DNA of 35,222 bases from Actinobacteria bacterium 21-64-8 (GTDB lineage Bacteria > Pseudomonadota > Alphaproteobacteria > Sphingomonadales > Sphingomonadaceae), in assembly GCA_903970225.1 (NCBI GenBank), contig CAJCHR010000280.1, positions 1-35,222 on the forward strand. Direction: 5' to 3'. Position numbers and translations under genes: made by a program. Under the pieces are notes generated by a model. The model had not been told where the DNA came from and did no database searches. It worked only from the letters and a program-made list of their open reading frames with translations. Shown here one piece after another: positions 8,250-34,856 of this stretch (position 1 is the stretch's first letter; each line of letters opens with the position of its first letter).

Positions 8250-8443
8250 GCCGCCAAGCCGGCCTCATCGAAGCTTGGCGCGCATCGCTCCAATGAGTTG
8301 TTCATGGGAGCATATTGGAAAAACTCGGCGCAAATGGCCGGCAAAACCTGCCAGATGGCGAGCGCGCCGGCTGCCGGAATTCCCGCTCGATCGCGGGACA
8401 AATTGACAGATGGTCCACAATCCTTGCCATTCGAATGGGTCCT

Positions 8444-9349
8444 ATGAGCAACCGCAATTCAATACTCGCCGGTGCGGCGCTCCTCGTGCTTGGTCTGGTC
8501 TTGTCCGCATCTGCGATTCACGCGCAGACCGCGGCCGCCGATCCGGCCACGATCACCACCCCGGCGCCGACTGCGCAGGACTGGGCAAGTATCGCGAAAC
8601 TGCCCGATCTGAGCGGCGTATGGTCGCCAGGGACGATCGACAAGTTCGAGCCGGGGACCACCACCGCGCCGCCGTGGAAGCCGGAATTCGCCAGACAGAT
8701 CGCCGCGCTCAAGGCGCTGGAGGAACAGGGCAGCCCGCAGAATATCTACGTCAACTGCCTTCCCGAGGGCCTCCCGAGTTCGGCCTCGCAGACGCTGAAT
8801 TCCACCGAGTTTCTGGTGACGCCGGGCCGGGTCACGATCCTGGGTGAGTTCGACGGCAACCGGCTACGCCGGATCTGGACCGACGGTCGGCCGCATCCCG
8901 CCGACCCCGACCCGACCTTCAGCGGCCATTCGATCGGCCACTGGGAGGGCAATACGCTGGTGGTCGATACGATCGGCTTCCTGCCCGAGGTGTTCATCCC
9001 GATGGGGCAAGGCGTGGGCATTCCCAACAATGGCGACATGCATGTCAGCGAGCGGATCACGCTGGTCGATGCCAATACGATCCGCCAGGAGCTCATCGTG
9101 ACCGCGCCCAAGGTGCTCACCGCACCGTGGAAGACCGCGCGCACCTACACCCGTCACCGCGAACGGAAGTACGACTTCGTCGAATCCTCCTGCCGACAGG
9201 GCGATTTCTACGAAGACAAGGACGAGCACGGAAACGCGGTGTTCAAGCCGATCCCCAAGGACGCAGGCGGCGCGCCGGTGCCGCCTGACGAGCCCGATGC
9301 CAAGTCGCCCAATTCTCAGCCGTCCAGTTCCAAACCGAAGAGCCAGTAG
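8444..9349 (+). CDS. Exported protein of unknown function, copy 1 of a tandem pair
   Basis: A 301-residue protein with a Sec signal peptide (about 1-27, ending SASAIHA) and no domain I can name. It shares a series of blocks with the gene at 9772: AKLPDLSGVWSP, NCLPEGLP, TPGRVTILGEFDGN, RLRRIWTDGR, SIGHWEGNTLVVDTIGFLP, GIPNNGDMHVSERI and CRQGDFYEDKD. The Trp/Asp/Gly-rich blocks suggest a beta-rich, possibly lipocalin- or propeller-like fold, which is a guess. The start at 8444 is chosen from the signal peptide; an in-frame ATG at 8435 is possible. A TTGACA at 8403-8408 could be a -35 box. It is followed after 3 bp by a DUF6152 gene; the pair is repeated next door. Confidence 0.8.
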   Translation: MSNRNSILAGAALLVLGLVLSASAIHAQTAAADPATITTPAPTAQDWASIAKLPDLSGVWSPGTIDKFEPGTTTAPPWKPEFARQIAALKALEEQGSPQNIYVNCLPEGLPSSASQTLNSTEFLVTPGRVTILGEFDGNRLRRIWTDGRPHPADPDPTFSGHSIGHWEGNTLVVDTIGFLPEVFIPMGQGVGIPNNGDMHVSERITLVDANTIRQELIVTAPKVLTAPWKTARTYTRHRERKYDFVESSCRQGDFYEDKDEHGNAVFKPIPKDAGGAPVPPDEPDAKSPNSQPSSSKPKSQ

Positions 9350-9352
9350 CCC

Positions 9353-9775
9353 ATGCGTCCCATCATCTTCGCCCGCCTGCTCGGCCCAGTCGCCCTGCTT
9401 GGTCTCGCAACGAGCGTGCCCGCGCTTGCACATCACAGTTTCGCGATGTTCGATCCCAGCAAGCCGATGAGCTTCGAAGGCACCGTGAAGAGCCTGCAAT
9501 GGACCGCGCCGCATGCGATCCTGTGGATCGAGGCCGGCAAAGTCGGTCAGTACGACGCGGGCCTGTGGTCGCTCGAGCTGCCCACCAGCCCCGGGAACCT
9601 CAACAAGATGGGCTGGTCACGCACCTCACTGGTTCCGGGTGACAAGGTCCGGGTCGATATCGACCCGATCCGCGACGGCCGGCGCGCCGGTCGGTTTAAG
9701 AAGGCCGTGATCCTGGCGAACGGCAAAGTCCTGACGGTCGGCAACATCCCCGGCGCGGGGGCGACCACCAAGTGA
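9353..9775 (+). CDS. DUF6152 family exported protein, copy 1
   Basis: A 140-residue periplasmic protein with a Sec signal peptide ending VPALA at residue 25, so the predicted mature chain begins HHSFAMFD. The family hallmarks follow: the HHSFAMFD start, a GTVK segment (about 43-46), then APHAILWIEAG, LWSLEL, SPGNLNKMGW and the GDKVRVDIDPIRDG block. The second copy (10623-11054) has the same HHSFAMFD start after ALA. DUF6152 has no established function. An exposed N-terminal His next to a second His is a known copper-binding arrangement in CopC and His-brace proteins; applying it here is inference. The stop overlaps the next gene's GTG by 4 bases. Confidence 0.85.
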   Translation: MRPIIFARLLGPVALLGLATSVPALAHHSFAMFDPSKPMSFEGTVKSLQWTAPHAILWIEAGKVGQYDAGLWSLELPTSPGNLNKMGWSRTSLVPGDKVRVDIDPIRDGRRAGRFKKAVILANGKVLTVGNIPGAGATTK

Positions 9776-10626
9776 GCCGGGCATTCACGCGCAAGCGCAG
9801 GGACCTGCTTGGCGCGATGGTTCTCAGCGCTGGCGTTCTGGCGAGCAGCACCAGCGCGCAGACCCCGCCGGTCAACGGGCCGATCAACCCGCCCCCCACC
9901 GCCGAGCAGTGGGCCGCGTTGGCCAAGCTGCCCGACTGGAGCGGAACCTGGTCGCCCGACATCACCGACCAGAACGCGCAGATCAAGACCAACCCGGTGC
10001 CCTGGAAGCCCGATATCCAGAAGCAGGTCGATTACTGGGTGTCCGAAGAACAGGCGGGGCGCCCCAACGGGTTGCTGCTCAACTGCCTGCCGCATGGCAT
10101 GCCCGGCCTGATCACGATCACGCACAACGCGATGGAGATCCTGTTCACGCCCGGTCGGGTCACGCTGCTCGGCGAATCCGACGGCAACCGGCTTCGCCGG
10201 ATCTGGACCGACGGCCGGGGCCATAGCGCCGATCCCGATCCAAGCTTCCACGGCGAATCGGTCGGCCACTGGGAGGGCGACACGCTCGCCGTCGATACGA
10301 TCGGCATCCTGCCGCAAGTGTTCCTGCCGGTGAGCGAATCGGTCGGTATTCCCAACAATGGCGATCTGCACATCACCGAGCGTATCCACCTGATCACGCC
10401 GGGCACGCTGGCGTTCGACCTGACGATCGACGCCCCGCATATCCTGACGCGGCCCTACGTCACGCGGCGCCTGTTCTATCGCCGCCGCCAGAAGAGCTTC
10501 GAGATCGGCGAAGGCGTCTGCCGCCAGGGCGACTTCCATGATGTCAAGGATAAATGGGATAACGACGTGTTCGAACCCGTCTACCAGCAGGATGGCAACG
10601 TCCTGCCTTCTCCCCCCAGCAAATGA
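9772..10626 (+). CDS. Exported protein of unknown function, copy 2 (Tat-like signal)
   Basis: A 284-residue paralogue of the 8444 gene. The GTG start at 9772 overlaps the preceding TGA (GTGA). The signal peptide (SRAFTRKRRDLLGAMVLSAG, cleavage near residue 30 at TSA-QTP) carries a twin Arg followed by hydrophobics (RRDLLG), resembling a Tat signal, whereas copy 1 has a plain Sec signal. Shared blocks are AKLPDWSGTWSP, NCLPHGMP, TPGRVTLLGESDGN, RLRRIWTDGR, SVGHWEGDTLAVDTIGILP, GIPNNGDLHITERI and CRQGDFHDVKD. Divergence outside these blocks shows the duplication is old. It is coupled to a DUF6152 gene by an ATGA overlap, as a functional pair would be. Function unknown. Confidence 0.8.
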   Translation: MSRAFTRKRRDLLGAMVLSAGVLASSTSAQTPPVNGPINPPPTAEQWAALAKLPDWSGTWSPDITDQNAQIKTNPVPWKPDIQKQVDYWVSEEQAGRPNGLLLNCLPHGMPGLITITHNAMEILFTPGRVTLLGESDGNRLRRIWTDGRGHSADPDPSFHGESVGHWEGDTLAVDTIGILPQVFLPVSESVGIPNNGDLHITERIHLITPGTLAFDLTIDAPHILTRPYVTRRLFYRRRQKSFEIGEGVCRQGDFHDVKDKWDNDVFEPVYQQDGNVLPSPPSK

Positions 10627-11054
10627 GAAAAGCGATGCGTCCGATCCCAGCCACTCCGATTGGCGCCGCCACGATCGCTGCCGTCACGTTCACCGTCGCC
10701 GCGCCCGCGCTCGCGCATCACAGCTTCGCGATGTTCGATCCGGGCAAGGTGGTGACGCTGAACGGCACGGTGAAGGAGTTCCGCTGGGTCAACCCGCACG
10801 TCTCGCTGTTCGTGCTCGCGGATCGTCCCGGTGCGACGCCCGAACTGTGGTCGGTGGAAATCACCAGCCCGGGCAACCTCGCCCGGCTGGGCTGGACCCG
10901 CAAGACGCTTAACGCGGGTGACAAGGTCGTGGTCGAGGTCAACCCGCTACGCGATGGGCAGAAGGGCGGCGGCTTCCGCAAGGCTACCCTGGTCGCGACC
11001 GGCCAGATCCTGCAGGCACGCCTGATAGACATCGAGAAGAACGGCGAGAAGTGA
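10623..11054 (+). CDS. DUF6152 family exported protein, copy 2
   Basis: A 143-residue protein; signal peptide to about residue 31 (ends AAPALA), mature start HHSFAMFDPGK. It aligns with copy 1 through LNGTVKEFRWVNPHVSLFV, LWSVEI, SPGNLARLGW and the GDKVVVEVNPLRDGQKGG block. It keeps the more typical NPH motif where copy 1 has APH. The ATG at 10623 overlaps the preceding TGA by 4 bases; an internal ATG at 10635 would also leave the signal peptide intact. It is the last gene of the four-gene plus-strand unit and converges, 3 bp apart, with a DUF6644 gene. Function unknown; see the metal-binding idea in the findings. Confidence 0.85.
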   Translation: MRKAMRPIPATPIGAATIAAVTFTVAAPALAHHSFAMFDPGKVVTLNGTVKEFRWVNPHVSLFVLADRPGATPELWSVEITSPGNLARLGWTRKTLNAGDKVVVEVNPLRDGQKGGGFRKATLVATGQILQARLIDIEKNGEK

Positions 11055-11597: not shown

Positions 11598-12110
11598 TCA
11601 CGAAGGCGCGCCCGCCCAGGGATCGGCGTAAGCGATCCAGCGTCCGGCCACGATCACCGCCAGCCACAGCGTCAACGTCACCAGCGCAACGAGCTTGCTC
11701 GCCGGTTTCGCAGTGACAACCTCGTCGCCGCGCTGCGCGAAAACCGGGCGCTGCGACCACGTCAGTCCCAGCGCCACGATCAGCAGGCCCATCTTGAGCC
11801 AGAAGATCGTGCGGAAGATCGCGCGGTTGGGTTCACCCGCTATCTGCAGCAGCCCGGTCGCCAGCAGCACGAGCACCGCGATCGTCACCGGCCACAGGAA
11901 GCGGTCGATCACCGCGGGCACGGGCTGTGAGCGCTCGGCCCAGCCGATGATCCGCAAGTTGATCAGCAGCACCCCCGCCAGCACCACCGCAACGCTGAGG
12001 ATATGTACGGTCTGCAGCGCGGGCACGACCCAGTCGTGGCTCGCGACCGCGAGATTGAGCCAGCTTCCGGTCAGCCAGTTGCTGATGCGGGTCAGGATTT
12101 GGGTGAACAT
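11598..12110 (-). CDS. DUF6644-like four-helix membrane protein, copy 2
   Basis: A 170-residue paralogue of the neighbouring gene. Hydrophobic segments lie at roughly 29-52, 70-88, 98-117 and 142-160. The matching motifs are ALQTVHILSVAVVLAG (His at about 36), LINLRIIGWAERS, FWLKMGLL and the closing AGRWIAYADPW. The pattern VH near the first helix, N/DLRL, LKM and GRWI is shared with the gene at 11058. It starts 8 nt after the stop of the GST-OYE fusion, so it is probably co-transcribed. The order of two membrane proteins facing two DUF6152 proteins suggests two matched exported/membrane pairs, which is inference. Confidence 0.75.
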   Translation of the reverse strand: MFTQILTRISNWLTGSWLNLAVASHDWVVPALQTVHILSVAVVLAGVLLINLRIIGWAERSQPVPAVIDRFLWPVTIAVLVLLATGLLQIAGEPNRAIFRTIFWLKMGLLIVALGLTWSQRPVFAQRGDEVVTAKPASKLVALVTLTLWLAVIVAGRWIAYADPWAGAPS

Positions 12111-12118
12111 CGGCTCGC

Positions 12119-13462
12119 TCAGTTTGCTGGCACGGGGACGGGTTCGAGGAAGGGATAATCGATATACCCCGCTTCCTCGCCATTCTGGAATGTCGCCACG
12201 TCGGGCGGGTTCAGCGGGACGTGGTCGAGCCGGAAGCGGTCGACCAGATCGGGATTGGCGATGTAGAGCCGGCCGAACGCGACGAAGTCCGCGCGCCCGC
12301 CCTCGATCGCGGCGAGCGCGGTGTCGCGGGTGAACTCGCCCGCGAGGATCAGCGGACCCGCGAAGATCTTGCGTATCCGTGCGGAAAGCCGCCGTTCGGC
12401 GGCGGTCGCATCGGGCTCGATCAGGTGAAGGTAGGCGATATCGCGATCGTGCAGTTCGCGCGCCACGTAAGCGTAAAGCGCCGCCGGATCGGAGTCGCCG
12501 CGCCCGTCGACGTCGAAGTGCGGCGAGATCCGCACGCCCACGCCCGCGGGGCCGAATACCTCGATCGCGGCATCGACGACCTCGAGCAGGAAGCGCGCGC
12601 GGTTCTCGATTGCGCCGCCGTAGGCATCGGTGCGCGTATTGGCATCGTCACGCAGAAATTGCTCGATCAGGAAGCCATTCGCCGCGTGCAATGCGATGCC
12701 GTCGAAGCCGGCGCGCTTGCTGTTGCTGGCGGCCTCGCGGAATTGATCGACGAGGTCGGGGATTTCATTCAACTCCGCCGCGCGCGGCACCGGGAACGGC
12801 TTGGTCCCGCTGACGATCGGCAGGGATCCGCTGGCCGCGACCGCGGAGGGGGCAACCGGCAGCACGTTGGCGGTCACCGCGCTCCAGGCTTCGACTTGCC
12901 CGTCCGAAAAGCGCCGCAGACGCGGGAAGGCGCTGCTCAGCGTATCGCCCGAGATGTCCTCGACGATCAGGTATCGCTGGAGGAACGGCGCGTAGCCCGA
13001 GTCGACCAGCGCATAGTCGGCGCCATTGAAGAACGGCCCCTCGCCGTGCCGCTCCAGCGCCTCCTCGAGCCGTGCGAATACGGCGAACAACGCCTCGCGC
13101 GCTTTCGCAAGTTCCTCTTCAGTCGCGGCACTTCCGACAGAGCCGGTCGCGGCGGAGAAGCTGGGGATGTAATCGGTCCAGGCGCGGTTCGAGGCGCGGG
13201 TGATCGGATCGGCCGGGTGAAGCCGTGGTTCGATCGTCTCGTCGAGGTATTCGGAGATGGCGTTGGACTTGAACAGGGCCACATTATCGTCGATCTGGAG
13301 CACGAGCACTTTGCCATGCGGCGAAATCGGCTTGAACCAGTCAGGACGGTTGCCGGGCTCAATGTGAACGAGTTCGAAGTCCACAGCCTTCTCGCGCAGC
13401 ACGATCGCCGCACGCTGGACCCATGGACAAGTCTTGAAACTGACGAGACGATATCGGGTCAA
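12119..13462 (-). CDS. Chimera: glutathione S-transferase fused to a truncated old yellow enzyme
   Basis: One uninterrupted 447-residue frame with two unrelated parts. Residues 1-~185 are a complete GST: thioredoxin-fold with CPWVQRAAIVL (Cys at about 12), PHGKVLVLQ, FKSNAISEYLDE, and the helical C domain ending FPRLRRFSD. From about residue 186 it is an NemA/XenB-type old yellow enzyme: QVEAWSAVTANV, then LPVAPSAV, PRAAELNEIPDLV, HAANGFLIEQFLRD, TDAYGGAIENRARF, FGRLYIANPDL. The first ~100 OYE residues (beta strands 1-2 of the TIM barrel) are absent, and a further ~27 residues (the LQLWHVGR region, which supplies the FMN-contacting Gln and substrate-site Trp) are skipped between TANV and LPVAP. 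The HxxN pair is kept but the proton-donor Tyr is Phe (HAANGF). Start is TTG. Flavin function is doubtful; GST activity may survive. Confidence 0.8.
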   Translation of the reverse strand: MTRYRLVSFKTCPWVQRAAIVLREKAVDFELVHIEPGNRPDWFKPISPHGKVLVLQIDDNVALFKSNAISEYLDETIEPRLHPADPITRASNRAWTDYIPSFSAATGSVGSAATEEELAKAREALFAVFARLEEALERHGEGPFFNGADYALVDSGYAPFLQRYLIVEDISGDTLSSAFPRLRRFSDGQVEAWSAVTANVLPVAPSAVAASGSLPIVSGTKPFPVPRAAELNEIPDLVDQFREAASNSKRAGFDGIALHAANGFLIEQFLRDDANTRTDAYGGAIENRARFLLEVVDAAIEVFGPAGVGVRISPHFDVDGRGDSDPAALYAYVARELHDRDIAYLHLIEPDATAAERRLSARIRKIFAGPLILAGEFTRDTALAAIEGGRADFVAFGRLYIANPDLVDRFRLDHVPLNPPDVATFQNGEEAGYIDYPFLEPVPVPAN

Positions 13463-13497
13463 GCGCTGCTCTACTGGAAAATGTGTCGTCGTTCAGC

Positions 13498-13540
13498 GCA
13501 AAACGGCGGCGGCAACCCTGCCTGGGGGTCACCGCCGCCT
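13498..13540 (-). terminator. Probable intrinsic terminator of the TauD gene
   Basis: Just beyond the TauD stop, GGCGGCGG (13505-13512) pairs perfectly with CCGCCGCC (13532-13539); the loop can pair further (ACCC with GGGT). Read on the minus strand the hairpin is followed by GTTTTGC, a short T-run. Position between two same-strand genes suggests TauD is transcribed separately from the GST-OYE operon. Confidence 0.55.
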
Positions 13541-13561
13541 GCTTTGCTTTCGGTTCAGGCC

Positions 13562-14440
13562 TTACAGGCTACGCCACAGATCTTCGTCGTCGATCAGCAC
13601 GCGCTCGAGTGCGCGCGGATAGTCGCCGTAATCGCGCACGGCGCGGTGCACGGCGGCGCGGTTGTCCCAGAACGCGATCGAGCCGGGCTTCCACGCAAAA
13701 CGAACCTGATATTCTGGCTTGCGATAGCGATCGAGGATCAGTTGGAGAACTTCGCGGTTTTCGTCCTTGTCGAGGCCGACGATCTCGGGATGCTTGCCGA
13801 AATCGACCCACAGGATCTTCTTGCCGGTCTCCCGGTGCGTTCGCACGATCGGATGTGCGACGAGCGGGTAGTCGCCGTGCCCGGCGCGCTTCAGAGAGCT
13901 GCGGAAATCGACAATCGAGTGCAGGCCTTCGAACCGATCCTTCACGTCCTGCGGAAGGTCGTTGTAGACCTGCTCGGCATCGACCCAGATCGTGTCGCCG
14001 CCCGTCGGCGGCAGATCCACCGCACGCAGCACCGAGCCCCAGCTCGGGACGATCCGCCAGTTTGTGTCGGTGTGATAGCCGTCGTAGATCTCGCCGGGAC
14101 GCTTCTCGCTCTCGAAGAATTCGCGCTGCTGCGGGTCGGCCGAAATCAGATGCACGCCGGATTCGCCATCGACATCGATCAGGCGATCGGCCGTGTAGGG
14201 CGGCGTGTAGATCGAACCGAAACGCTTGGCGAAATCGAGATGCTGGCGGCGATCGACAGTCTGGTCGCGGAAGAACAGCACCTTGTATTTCAGCAGTGCT
14301 GCCTTGATCTGGTCGCGCGCCTCATCCGACAGGGCTTTGCTCAGGTCGATCCCGCTGACTTCGGCGCCGATCGTGGGATGCGCGGGCGTGAACGTCAGCG
14401 TGGCGGTATCGGCTCTTTCAAGTTCCAGGACATCGCTCAT
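13562..14440 (-). CDS. TauD/TfdA-family Fe(II)/2-oxoglutarate dioxygenase
   Basis: A 292-residue mononuclear iron dioxygenase. Iron ligands are His123 and Asp125 in GYHTDTNW and His265 in NRAAVHRAV. The 2-oxoglutarate-binding Arg is at 276 or 280 (PRALER), with the same spacing from the distal His as in TauD. PTGGDTIWVD is also typical. These enzymes hydroxylate taurine, alkylsulfonates, sulfate esters or phenoxyacetates; the substrate residues here cannot be assigned with confidence. Length is normal. GGAGAG lies 9 nt before the ATG. It stands alone, between a probable terminator and an upstream palindrome. A sulfur-scavenging role would fit the organosulfur operon 15 kb away, but other substrates are possible. 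Confidence 0.87.
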   Translation of the reverse strand: MSDVLELERADTATLTFTPAHPTIGAEVSGIDLSKALSDEARDQIKAALLKYKVLFFRDQTVDRRQHLDFAKRFGSIYTPPYTADRLIDVDGESGVHLISADPQQREFFESEKRPGEIYDGYHTDTNWRIVPSWGSVLRAVDLPPTGGDTIWVDAEQVYNDLPQDVKDRFEGLHSIVDFRSSLKRAGHGDYPLVAHPIVRTHRETGKKILWVDFGKHPEIVGLDKDENREVLQLILDRYRKPEYQVRFAWKPGSIAFWDNRAAVHRAVRDYGDYPRALERVLIDDEDLWRSL

Positions 14441-16224: not shown

Positions 16225-16774
16225 GGCGCGGAAAGTGGTATCGGCGGCAACTCGGCTTTTGGCAGCGACACGCCGAGTACCGCAGCGATCGTAGGCGCGA
16301 TCGCGCGGATGTCGATAACCCCAAGGTCTCGCTCACGCGCCACGCCTGGCCCATGGATCAGGAATGTCAGCGAAGCTCGGATGCGTAGCCGAGTGGCCAT
16401 GCGTGCCTTTTTTGCCTTGGCGGGGACAGCTCATCGATCCGGTTGAGCGCGGCGTTGGCCTCGGGAGAGCCTGGGCCCGACTTGTGCTCGGCATCCTCGA
16501 GATCGCCGAAATGCACGGTTATGAAGCCTGGGTAATAGAGCTGGATCAGCGTGACCGCGATCCGCGCATCCGCGGCCATCAGTCGCGAAAGATTGGGAGG
16601 CCTGATGCCGCGCTGATCCGCCTCGAGCAAATCTCCGGGCCGCAGCCCGTCGATCGAGACCATCAGCACCGGAGCGGCATGAGCGGCCGGGATGGAGAAG
16701 GTTGCGGCCGCACAGGCGGCGATCCAGCGCGGCCGTATCAGCCGCCTGCGTACGGATTGGAAGGGGACGGGCAT
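16221..16774 (-). pseudogene. Remnant of an exported type I phosphodiesterase/nucleotide pyrophosphatase
   Basis: The N-terminus is intact: signal peptide (AACAAATFSIPAAHA), then PVLMVSIDGLRPGDLLEADQ and PNLSRLMA, the metal-binding start of the alkaline-phosphatase-like family. The frame then jumps straight to RPDFMTAYFTGLD-like sequence (here YYPGFITVHFGDLEDAEH, then GPGSPEANAALNRIDE), skipping roughly 150-170 residues with the catalytic Thr segment. It ends soon after in a wrong frame at 16367. Further down, in another frame (about 16376-16221), the true C-terminus reappears: ASLTFLIHGPGVARERDLGV, IDIRAIAPTIAAVLGVSLP, ending TGA at 16221. So a ~420-residue enzyme has lost two internal pieces. 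Family recalled from typical sequences; the deletions are inferred by comparison. Confidence 0.72.
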
Positions 16775-17017
16775 GTGAACCTTACGCACGATGATCCAGA
16801 GACGGCTGCGCGCTATGCCGTGCCCGGACGGCGGACAAACGAGTTCCGCACCCGCCGCGATAAGAGATTGTCGTAGAAGCACGGGCAGCGCCGGCGCGTT
16901 ACCGGACACGCGATCGTCAAACGTCTTTCGCGACATCGCTCGCTGCGCGTTCATGGTCTCGGCGTCGGCCTGCACGGTCGGGCCCTATTTCAATGCAGGC
17001 TCCGAAAAGCGTCGCGT

Positions 17018-34073: not shown

Positions 34074-34856
34074 TTACTGGGCGACGTTGCTGGGGCGCCA
34101 GACAAGCGCCCGCTTCTCGATCGCGCGGACGAACCAGTCGGCGAACAGGCCGAGCGCGGCGTAGACGATCAGGCACACCACGATGATGTCGGTGCGCAGG
34201 AAGTCGCGCGCGTTGTTGATCAGGTAGCCGAGGCCCGCCGACGCATTGATCTGTTCGGCGACCACCAGCACAAGGATCGCGATCGACAGCGAATAGCGCA
34301 GGCCGACCAGCAGCGAGGGCAATGCGCCGGGCAGGATCACGTGCCAGATCAGTTCGGCCTGCGAAAGACCGAGCGTGCGTGCACCCTCGATCAGCCGCAC
34401 GTCGACGCTGCGGATGCCGCTGTAGAGATTGAGGTAGATCGGAAAGGTCGAAGCGAATGCGATCAGCCCGATCTTGGGCGTCTCACCGATGCCGAACCAG
34501 ACGATGAACAGCGGCGTCAGCGCCAGCGTGGGAATCGTACGCTTGATCTGCATCAGCGGGTCGACCGCCACTTCGCCCTGCCGCGAAAGCCCGGCGATAA
34601 GCGCGAGCACGGTGCCGACGGTGATGCCGATCGCCAGTCCGACACCGACGCGCATCGTCGAGACCAGAAGATTCTCGGGCAGCTCGCCCGAGCGGACCAT
34701 GCCATAGAGCGTAGTGAGCACCGCCGAGGGCGCGGCGAGCGTGTGCGCCGGAATGATCCCGGTGCGCGATCCGAGCTCCCACACCAGCAGAAACACCAGC
34801 GGCGACAGCCAGCGCGACCGCCCGGTCGTCCTCAGTATTTGCTTCAGAACACGCAT
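34074..34856 (-). CDS. SsuC-like ABC transporter permease
   Basis: A 260-residue inner-membrane permease with about six hydrophobic segments. The family EAA loop appears as RLIEGARTLGLSQAELIWHVILPGALPSLLVGLR (about 150-183), with the conserved G at the usual spacing. PLFIVWFGIGETPK and INASAGLGYLINNARDF are also typical of SsuC/TauC/NrtB. It is the first gene of the six-gene organosulfur operon. The ATG at 34856 has no strong ribosome-binding site. The 281 bp upstream hold a perfect palindrome and the start of a divergent LysR regulator. Confidence 0.9.
   Translation of the reverse strand: MRVLKQILRTTGRSRWLSPLVFLLVWELGSRTGIIPAHTLAAPSAVLTTLYGMVRSGELPENLLVSTMRVGVGLAIGITVGTVLALIAGLSRQGEVAVDPLMQIKRTIPTLALTPLFIVWFGIGETPKIGLIAFASTFPIYLNLYSGIRSVDVRLIEGARTLGLSQAELIWHVILPGALPSLLVGLRYSLSIAILVLVVAEQINASAGLGYLINNARDFLRTDIIVVCLIVYAALGLFADWFVRAIEKRALVWRPSNVAQ

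Follow-up and report, generated by a model that had tools for sequence, protein, structure and literature searches.

The question raised by this locus is whether an open reading frame that joins a glutathione S-transferase (GST) to an old yellow enzyme (OYE) is a new domain combination or a deletion scar, as an earlier note on this DNA had put it. The frame lies on the minus strand at 12119-13462 of the window, which is the whole 35,222-nucleotide stretch of DNA that was analysed. It runs for 447 codons from a TTG start with no internal stop or frameshift. Residues 1-185 form the GST half (12908-13462, minus strand), with the SFKTCPW-bearing N-domain and most of the helical C-domain, and are followed by OYE sequence in two pieces, a sliver of 15 codons (residues 186-200, SDGQVEAWSAVTANV, 12863-12907, minus strand) and a C-terminal part (residues 201-447 and the stop, 12119-12862, minus strand). 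Pfam finds both domains and both joins keep the reading frame, as had been claimed. The matches are GST_N_3 at residues 6-77 (59.7 bits, cut-off 22, E 3.6e-16), GST_C_2 at 116-187 (29 bits, cut-off 24.9) and Oxidored_FMN at 217-410 (147.3 bits, cut-off 27, E 8.9e-43). The thioredoxin-like N-domain and the helical C-domain of a GST are thus both recognised, and the Oxidored_FMN profile is covered over positions 132-335 of 342 only. Both similarities are far above chance. The top NCBIfam model is N-ethylmaleimide reductase NemA (NF007899), which scores 214.2 bits over residues 193-439 against a cut-off of 403, and the best PDB sequence match is 3gka, an N-ethylmaleimide reductase, with 4ab4 (XenB) also found. 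The chimera is therefore like NemA and XenB in its best matches and unlike them in falling below the model's cut-off and missing the N-terminal part. Its codon-position GC (0.69/0.46/0.81) is still coding-like. The start codons of 42 of 84 GST matches align at residue 1, and 41 of these are ATG and one is GTG, compared to TTG in the chimera.

The frame is quite probably an in-frame deletion chimera and a young pseudogene, because each half is without pieces that its family requires, a single assembly shows the join and a gene nearby has a deletion of its own. Of the two possibilities that had been left open, we favour the scar; the truncation of both halves, the loss of Pro53 and Glu65, the absence of barrel strands 1-3, the uniqueness of the join in our searches and the deleted neighbour all point that way, and the new combination is less supported. 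What can be seen directly in the chimera is that both halves are truncated, that the joins keep the frame and that the residues have changed.

The earlier note had called the GST complete, but its C-terminal tail is absent. The tails of 79 relatives' frames were compared, and in 78 of them the stop lies inside the locus (one, L069, is not readable to its end). All 78 run 37-49 residues, most commonly 45, past the equivalent of chimera residue 185. The GST_C_2 model is nearly filled (2-68 of 69) despite the lost tail because it ends before the tail. Residues 53 and 65 of the chimera, which had not been remarked on before, are Leu and Lys, where all 78 relatives have Pro and Glu. In an excerpt of a study of glutathione transferases (PMC4138524), the cis-proline is described as invariant and tied to maintaining the fold, and a Glu, Asp or Gln with an adjacent Ser is described as stabilising the γ-glutamate of glutathione. 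By our reading of the alignment, Leu53 and Lys65 would sit at those very positions (KVPVL and FESNAI in relatives), leaving Leu53 instead of the cis-proline and Lys65-Ser66 instead of the residue pair that holds the γ-glutamate. Only 3 of the 69 sites conserved in at least 95% of the other 78 sequences are altered in the GST half. Three or more such changes occur in 3 of the 78 relatives, including L037, whose nearest neighbour is the chimera. Judged by this alignment, the number of conserved-site changes is not unusual, and where two of them appear to fall is telling. The nearest GST relatives are 69-70% identical (for example, L037) and unfused. In the GST alignment, 15 of the 16 rows were 225-234 amino acids long, and the L053 row (191 amino acids, a different GST) was left out. 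The chimera resembles the CPW-segment glutathione transferases of alpha-, beta- and gammaproteobacteria, such as L037, in having SFKTCPW, a thioredoxin-like N-domain and most of the helical C-domain, but it differs in the missing tail, the Pro to Leu53 and Glu to Lys65 changes and the fused OYE.

The OYE half is truncated at its N-terminus and also internally. A loss of about 100 residues had been claimed for the N-terminus; the N-terminus is indeed absent, but the loss is 73, 76 or 79 residues when counted against three intact relatives. The further loss of about 27 residues proved exact, since the gap at the second join (residues 200/201, 12862/12863, minus strand) is 27 codons (81 nt) corresponding to H92-Q118 of the intact L119 enzyme, where barrel strand 3 lies. 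The segment lost with it, given before as LQLWHVGR, is FQQLFHLGR in the chimera's own subfamily (FQQIVHLGR in L039). Seven of the eight invariant columns listed between 91 and 107 in alignment A2 sit in the lost piece. In a structural model of L119 (mean pLDDT 87.5), strands 1, 2 and 3 are at 21-23, 54-56 and 98-103, inside the lost parts 1-76 and 92-118, and residue 201 onward of the chimera matches OYE from past strand 3. By our assignment of the strands on this model, the chimera would keep the equivalents of strands 4-8 of the eight; the residues of strands 1-3 are absent, so the barrel is not complete. The 15 codons that remain between the two joins are equivalent to L119 residues 77-91, the helix between strands 2 and 3. 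We considered these residues as a possible GST tail and rejected this, since they match the OYE pattern SDGQxxxWxxVTxxV and since TCG GAC GGC CAG stands at this point in the gene of Sphingobium chlorophenolicum.

The HAAN form of the His-x-x-Asn motif is retained in the C-terminal part. It is followed by Phe264 rather than the Tyr proton donor, as the earlier note had observed, but this is not damage, because the closest intact enzymes have Phe too. Among 32 aligned OYEs, the residue after HxxN is Tyr in 29 and Phe in 3, and Phe is found in the three nearest intact relatives and in the copy on Sphingobium yanoikuyae plasmid pKN1. The idea that the Tyr to Phe change is a sign of degeneration was therefore discarded. 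Changes are found at 3 of 41 near-invariant sites, and 4 of the 32 relatives have as many or more, so that the OYE half as a whole is no worse kept than its relatives. The alignment rows used were L038, L039, L040, L010, L012, L020 and L021, and L013, L016, L018, L019 and L002 were left out because their translations were in a wrong frame. The nearest OYE relatives are unfused genes, 56-66% identical depending on the stretch compared. Like the Phe-type OYEs of sphingomonads (Novosphingobium nitrogenifigens L038, Novosphingobium sp. FKTRR1 L040, S. chlorophenolicum L039 and S. yanoikuyae pKN1 L174), the chimera has HxANGFLIEQF, the equivalents of strands 4-8 and the C-terminal segments. It differs from them in being without the first ~75 and 27 internal residues (strands 1-3 and FQQLFHLGR), and in having a GST in place of the N-terminus.

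A stable GST-OYE architecture would be expected to recur, and no recurrence was seen. With the whole protein as the query, no second fused copy was found among the best 24 candidates in the chimera's own genome, and none was among the matches listed for 194 other genomes of the genus. Neither a family sample of 397 genomes (residues 1-308 as the query, E up to 1e-30) nor an order sample of 396 genomes (whole protein, E up to 1e-60) held one; in these three overlapping samples, the best 4-8 candidates per genome were considered. No record among 72,556 plasmids covers 80% of the query, a nucleotide search likewise gave none at 80%, and a scan of the viral_contigs set found no relative of the chimera. 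The suggestion that other genomes might share the join thus yielded zero further copies among the best candidates per genome and plasmid matches listed, and every match listed outside the window covers one half of the chimera only. A class sample of 385 was queried with residues 1-200, which amounts to the GST half; 11 loci were taken, with ~1.5 kb flanking the match in both directions, and no OYE sequence was present in them. Among the best 80 of 91 relative-encoding stretches in the genome_contigs set, 77 had GST and 4 had OYE-like sequence, and only L051 had both, with an OYE-like sequence 30% identical and ~5.3 kb from the GST. In no genome among those examined were gst and OYE side by side, an adjacency that was tested in part only, because flanks of 2 kb or more in both directions are available for just 54 of the 77 GST loci. 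Titles and abstract openings of the papers listed on OYE with GST, on fusions and on Phe-type enzymes mention no natural GST-OYE fusion, although one may exist in print.

In the surroundings of the chimera, a TauD/TfdA family dioxygenase gene (13562-14440, minus strand, Pfam) is the upstream neighbour, and two DUF6644 genes follow the chimera on the same strand. Farther along the window are genes for a luciferase-like monooxygenase, a rhodanese-domain protein, a cysteine-dioxygenase-like protein and ABC transporters. In genus relatives G108, G003 and G129, matches to this set accompany a match to TauD, which would point to organosulfur scavenging. The DUF6644 pair is present in genus relatives G108, G054 and G139, and the stretches taken from around it hold nothing that matches the TauD, GST or OYE of the window; in G108, a TauD match is ~20 kb off on the same contig. 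On plasmid pKN1, which carries the closest plasmid OYE (L174), the OYE adjoins a TauD gene, and an ABC substrate-binding protein, a sulfate exporter and an alkyl sulfatase are encoded close by. A TauD match was also found in 8 of 77 GST loci, at 27-36% identity. This shared TauD adjacency is suggestive, at most, of gst and OYE having once been neighbours. The plus strand at 8315-11054 holds a two-gene unit in two tandem copies (the 8315 and 9772 frames are 49% alike, and the 9353 and 10623 frames 46%), and in genus relatives L158, L160 and L164 this order is kept beside a pair of DUF6644 genes.

Another gene, at a distance of about 3 kb, has lost an internal part as the chimera has. The frame at 16370-16975 (minus strand) is a remnant of a type I phosphodiesterase with its middle missing, and matches the Pfam Phosphodiest profile over positions 158-193 of 342 only. 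Four of 20 other genomes match it (G013, G021, G101 and G108), and in these a frame of 470-565 codons contains both blocks of the remnant, with 337-343 bases between them. In the window the same two blocks are continuous. A PDB sequence search with the remnant gave no match. The remnant supports a reading of gene decay in this region, and would also fit a local assembly problem.

We propose that a deletion joined a gst gene to a Phe-type alkene reductase (OYE) gene, the two having probably lain next to each other in an organosulfur-scavenging island beside tauD. From gst it would have taken the stop and the ~40-45 codons before it, and from OYE the first ~75 codons. The first join would fall inside helix-coding sequence, near TTT/TCG GAC GGG. 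A deletion of 81 nt, which we place second, would then have removed barrel strand 3 of the OYE. The predicted product is a GST without its tail and with two key residues changed, followed by five-eighths of a barrel in which the normal FMN site would be unable to form. We expect this product to be inactive both as a GST and as an ene-reductase.

Deletion-derived chimeric pseudogenes are a known outcome of gene decay. The chimera is like them in consisting of two truncated genes in frame, with conserved residues lost and in one lineage, but it differs in being open over its whole length, so that it must be either young or constrained. Substitutions that create a stop make up 2.1-2.4% of those possible in the chimera, and one nonsense mutation would be expected per ~3-4% divergence if it were neutral. 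Therefore, a neutral lesion must be young. By about 9-11% divergence, 95% of neutral copies would be closed, a figure that ignores indels and assumes the substitution weights. The open frame is as compatible with a young remnant as with a constrained gene, and does not tell the two apart. The in-frame joins also carry little weight for function, because retention of the frame was a condition for the locus being noticed. We counted the 447 open codons, the in-frame joins, the coding-like GC, the unremarkable numbers of changes and the unseen gst-OYE adjacency against the pseudogene reading. If the chimera is a remnant, it is a clean case of in-frame deletions leaving domain-rich frames, which automatic annotation could call a new bifunctional enzyme.

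Another possible explanation is that the chimera is a new two-part protein under selection, in which the GST scaffold and the half-barrel have a non-catalytic role, such as binding a ligand or a flavin phosphate, or in which the fold is partly restored by dimerisation. We consider this unlikely. The 447 codons that stay open through two in-frame joins, the meeting of helix with helix at the join, the ordinary number of conserved-site changes in each half, and the retention of the HxxN pair and the C-terminal AFGRLYIANPD segment would all suit such a protein, but the join was not found among the best candidates and matches listed from the other genomes and plasmids searched, and the conserved GST Pro and Glu and OYE strands 1-3 are lost. 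The signals ahead of the frame were also counted against this reading. A hairpin at 13495-13555 (minus strand; MFE -39.2 kcal/mol, z -4.43, none of 200 shuffles as stable) parts the TauD stop from the chimera start and is terminator-like in its position, although a consensus terminator scan did not list it, and a scan of 11900-13750 for sigma-70-like promoters gave none (0.3 expected in shuffles), a test that is weak in this bacterial group. The AlphaFold2 model of the chimera likewise speaks against a selected protein, with a mean pLDDT of 57.4 and a pTM of 0.47; the ten-residue blocks over 231-390 (65-97) are better than most others. This is weak evidence because the underlying alignment (A4) is imperfect, with 12-28 residues of each OYE row placed on GST columns, and because the GST half is also poorly modelled though GST folds are common. 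Alignments A1 and A3 were left out since their OYE rows fell on GST columns. A more specific version, in which the thioredoxin-like domain replaces the first three strands as a structural partner and a pocket for a flavin phosphate or an aromatic ligand is kept without normal GST or OYE chemistry, is very doubtful. If the chimera did prove functional, nature would have combined a thioredoxin-like domain with a half barrel in one protein, which would be surprising.

It is also improbable that the organism has both parental genes in intact form and that segments were skipped by the assembler. The assembly, of which the window is one contig, is fragmented (525 contigs, 96.7% complete, 5.5% contamination), and the internal deletion of a second gene nearby is what a systematic assembly fault could give. 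However, neither parent was found elsewhere in the assembly, where the next best OYE and GST among the best 24 candidates are 51% and 38% identical, respectively. The three joins, two in the chimera and one in the phosphodiesterase remnant, are all in frame, even though an open frame is what made them noticeable, and a join error leaves the changes at residues 53 and 65 unexplained. A young deletion chimera remains the reading that we prefer over both alternatives.

Two further observations were made along the way. Another contig of the same assembly (L166, G000:C229) carries at 8649-9431 a 91.5% identical copy of the window's ABC permease (34074-34856), which may represent a paralogue or contamination; the contig also has a match to TauD and a distant one to GST. 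The comparison of OYEs also brought out an intact Phe-type subfamily in Novosphingobium and Sphingobium (L038, L039, L040, L118, L119 and L174) with HxANGFLIEQF, and with FQQLFH or FQQIVH compared to the usual LQLWH. These sphingomonad enzymes are naturally without the textbook Tyr, one member lies beside a TauD gene amid genes of sulfur metabolism, and the subfamily may be the more useful side finding.
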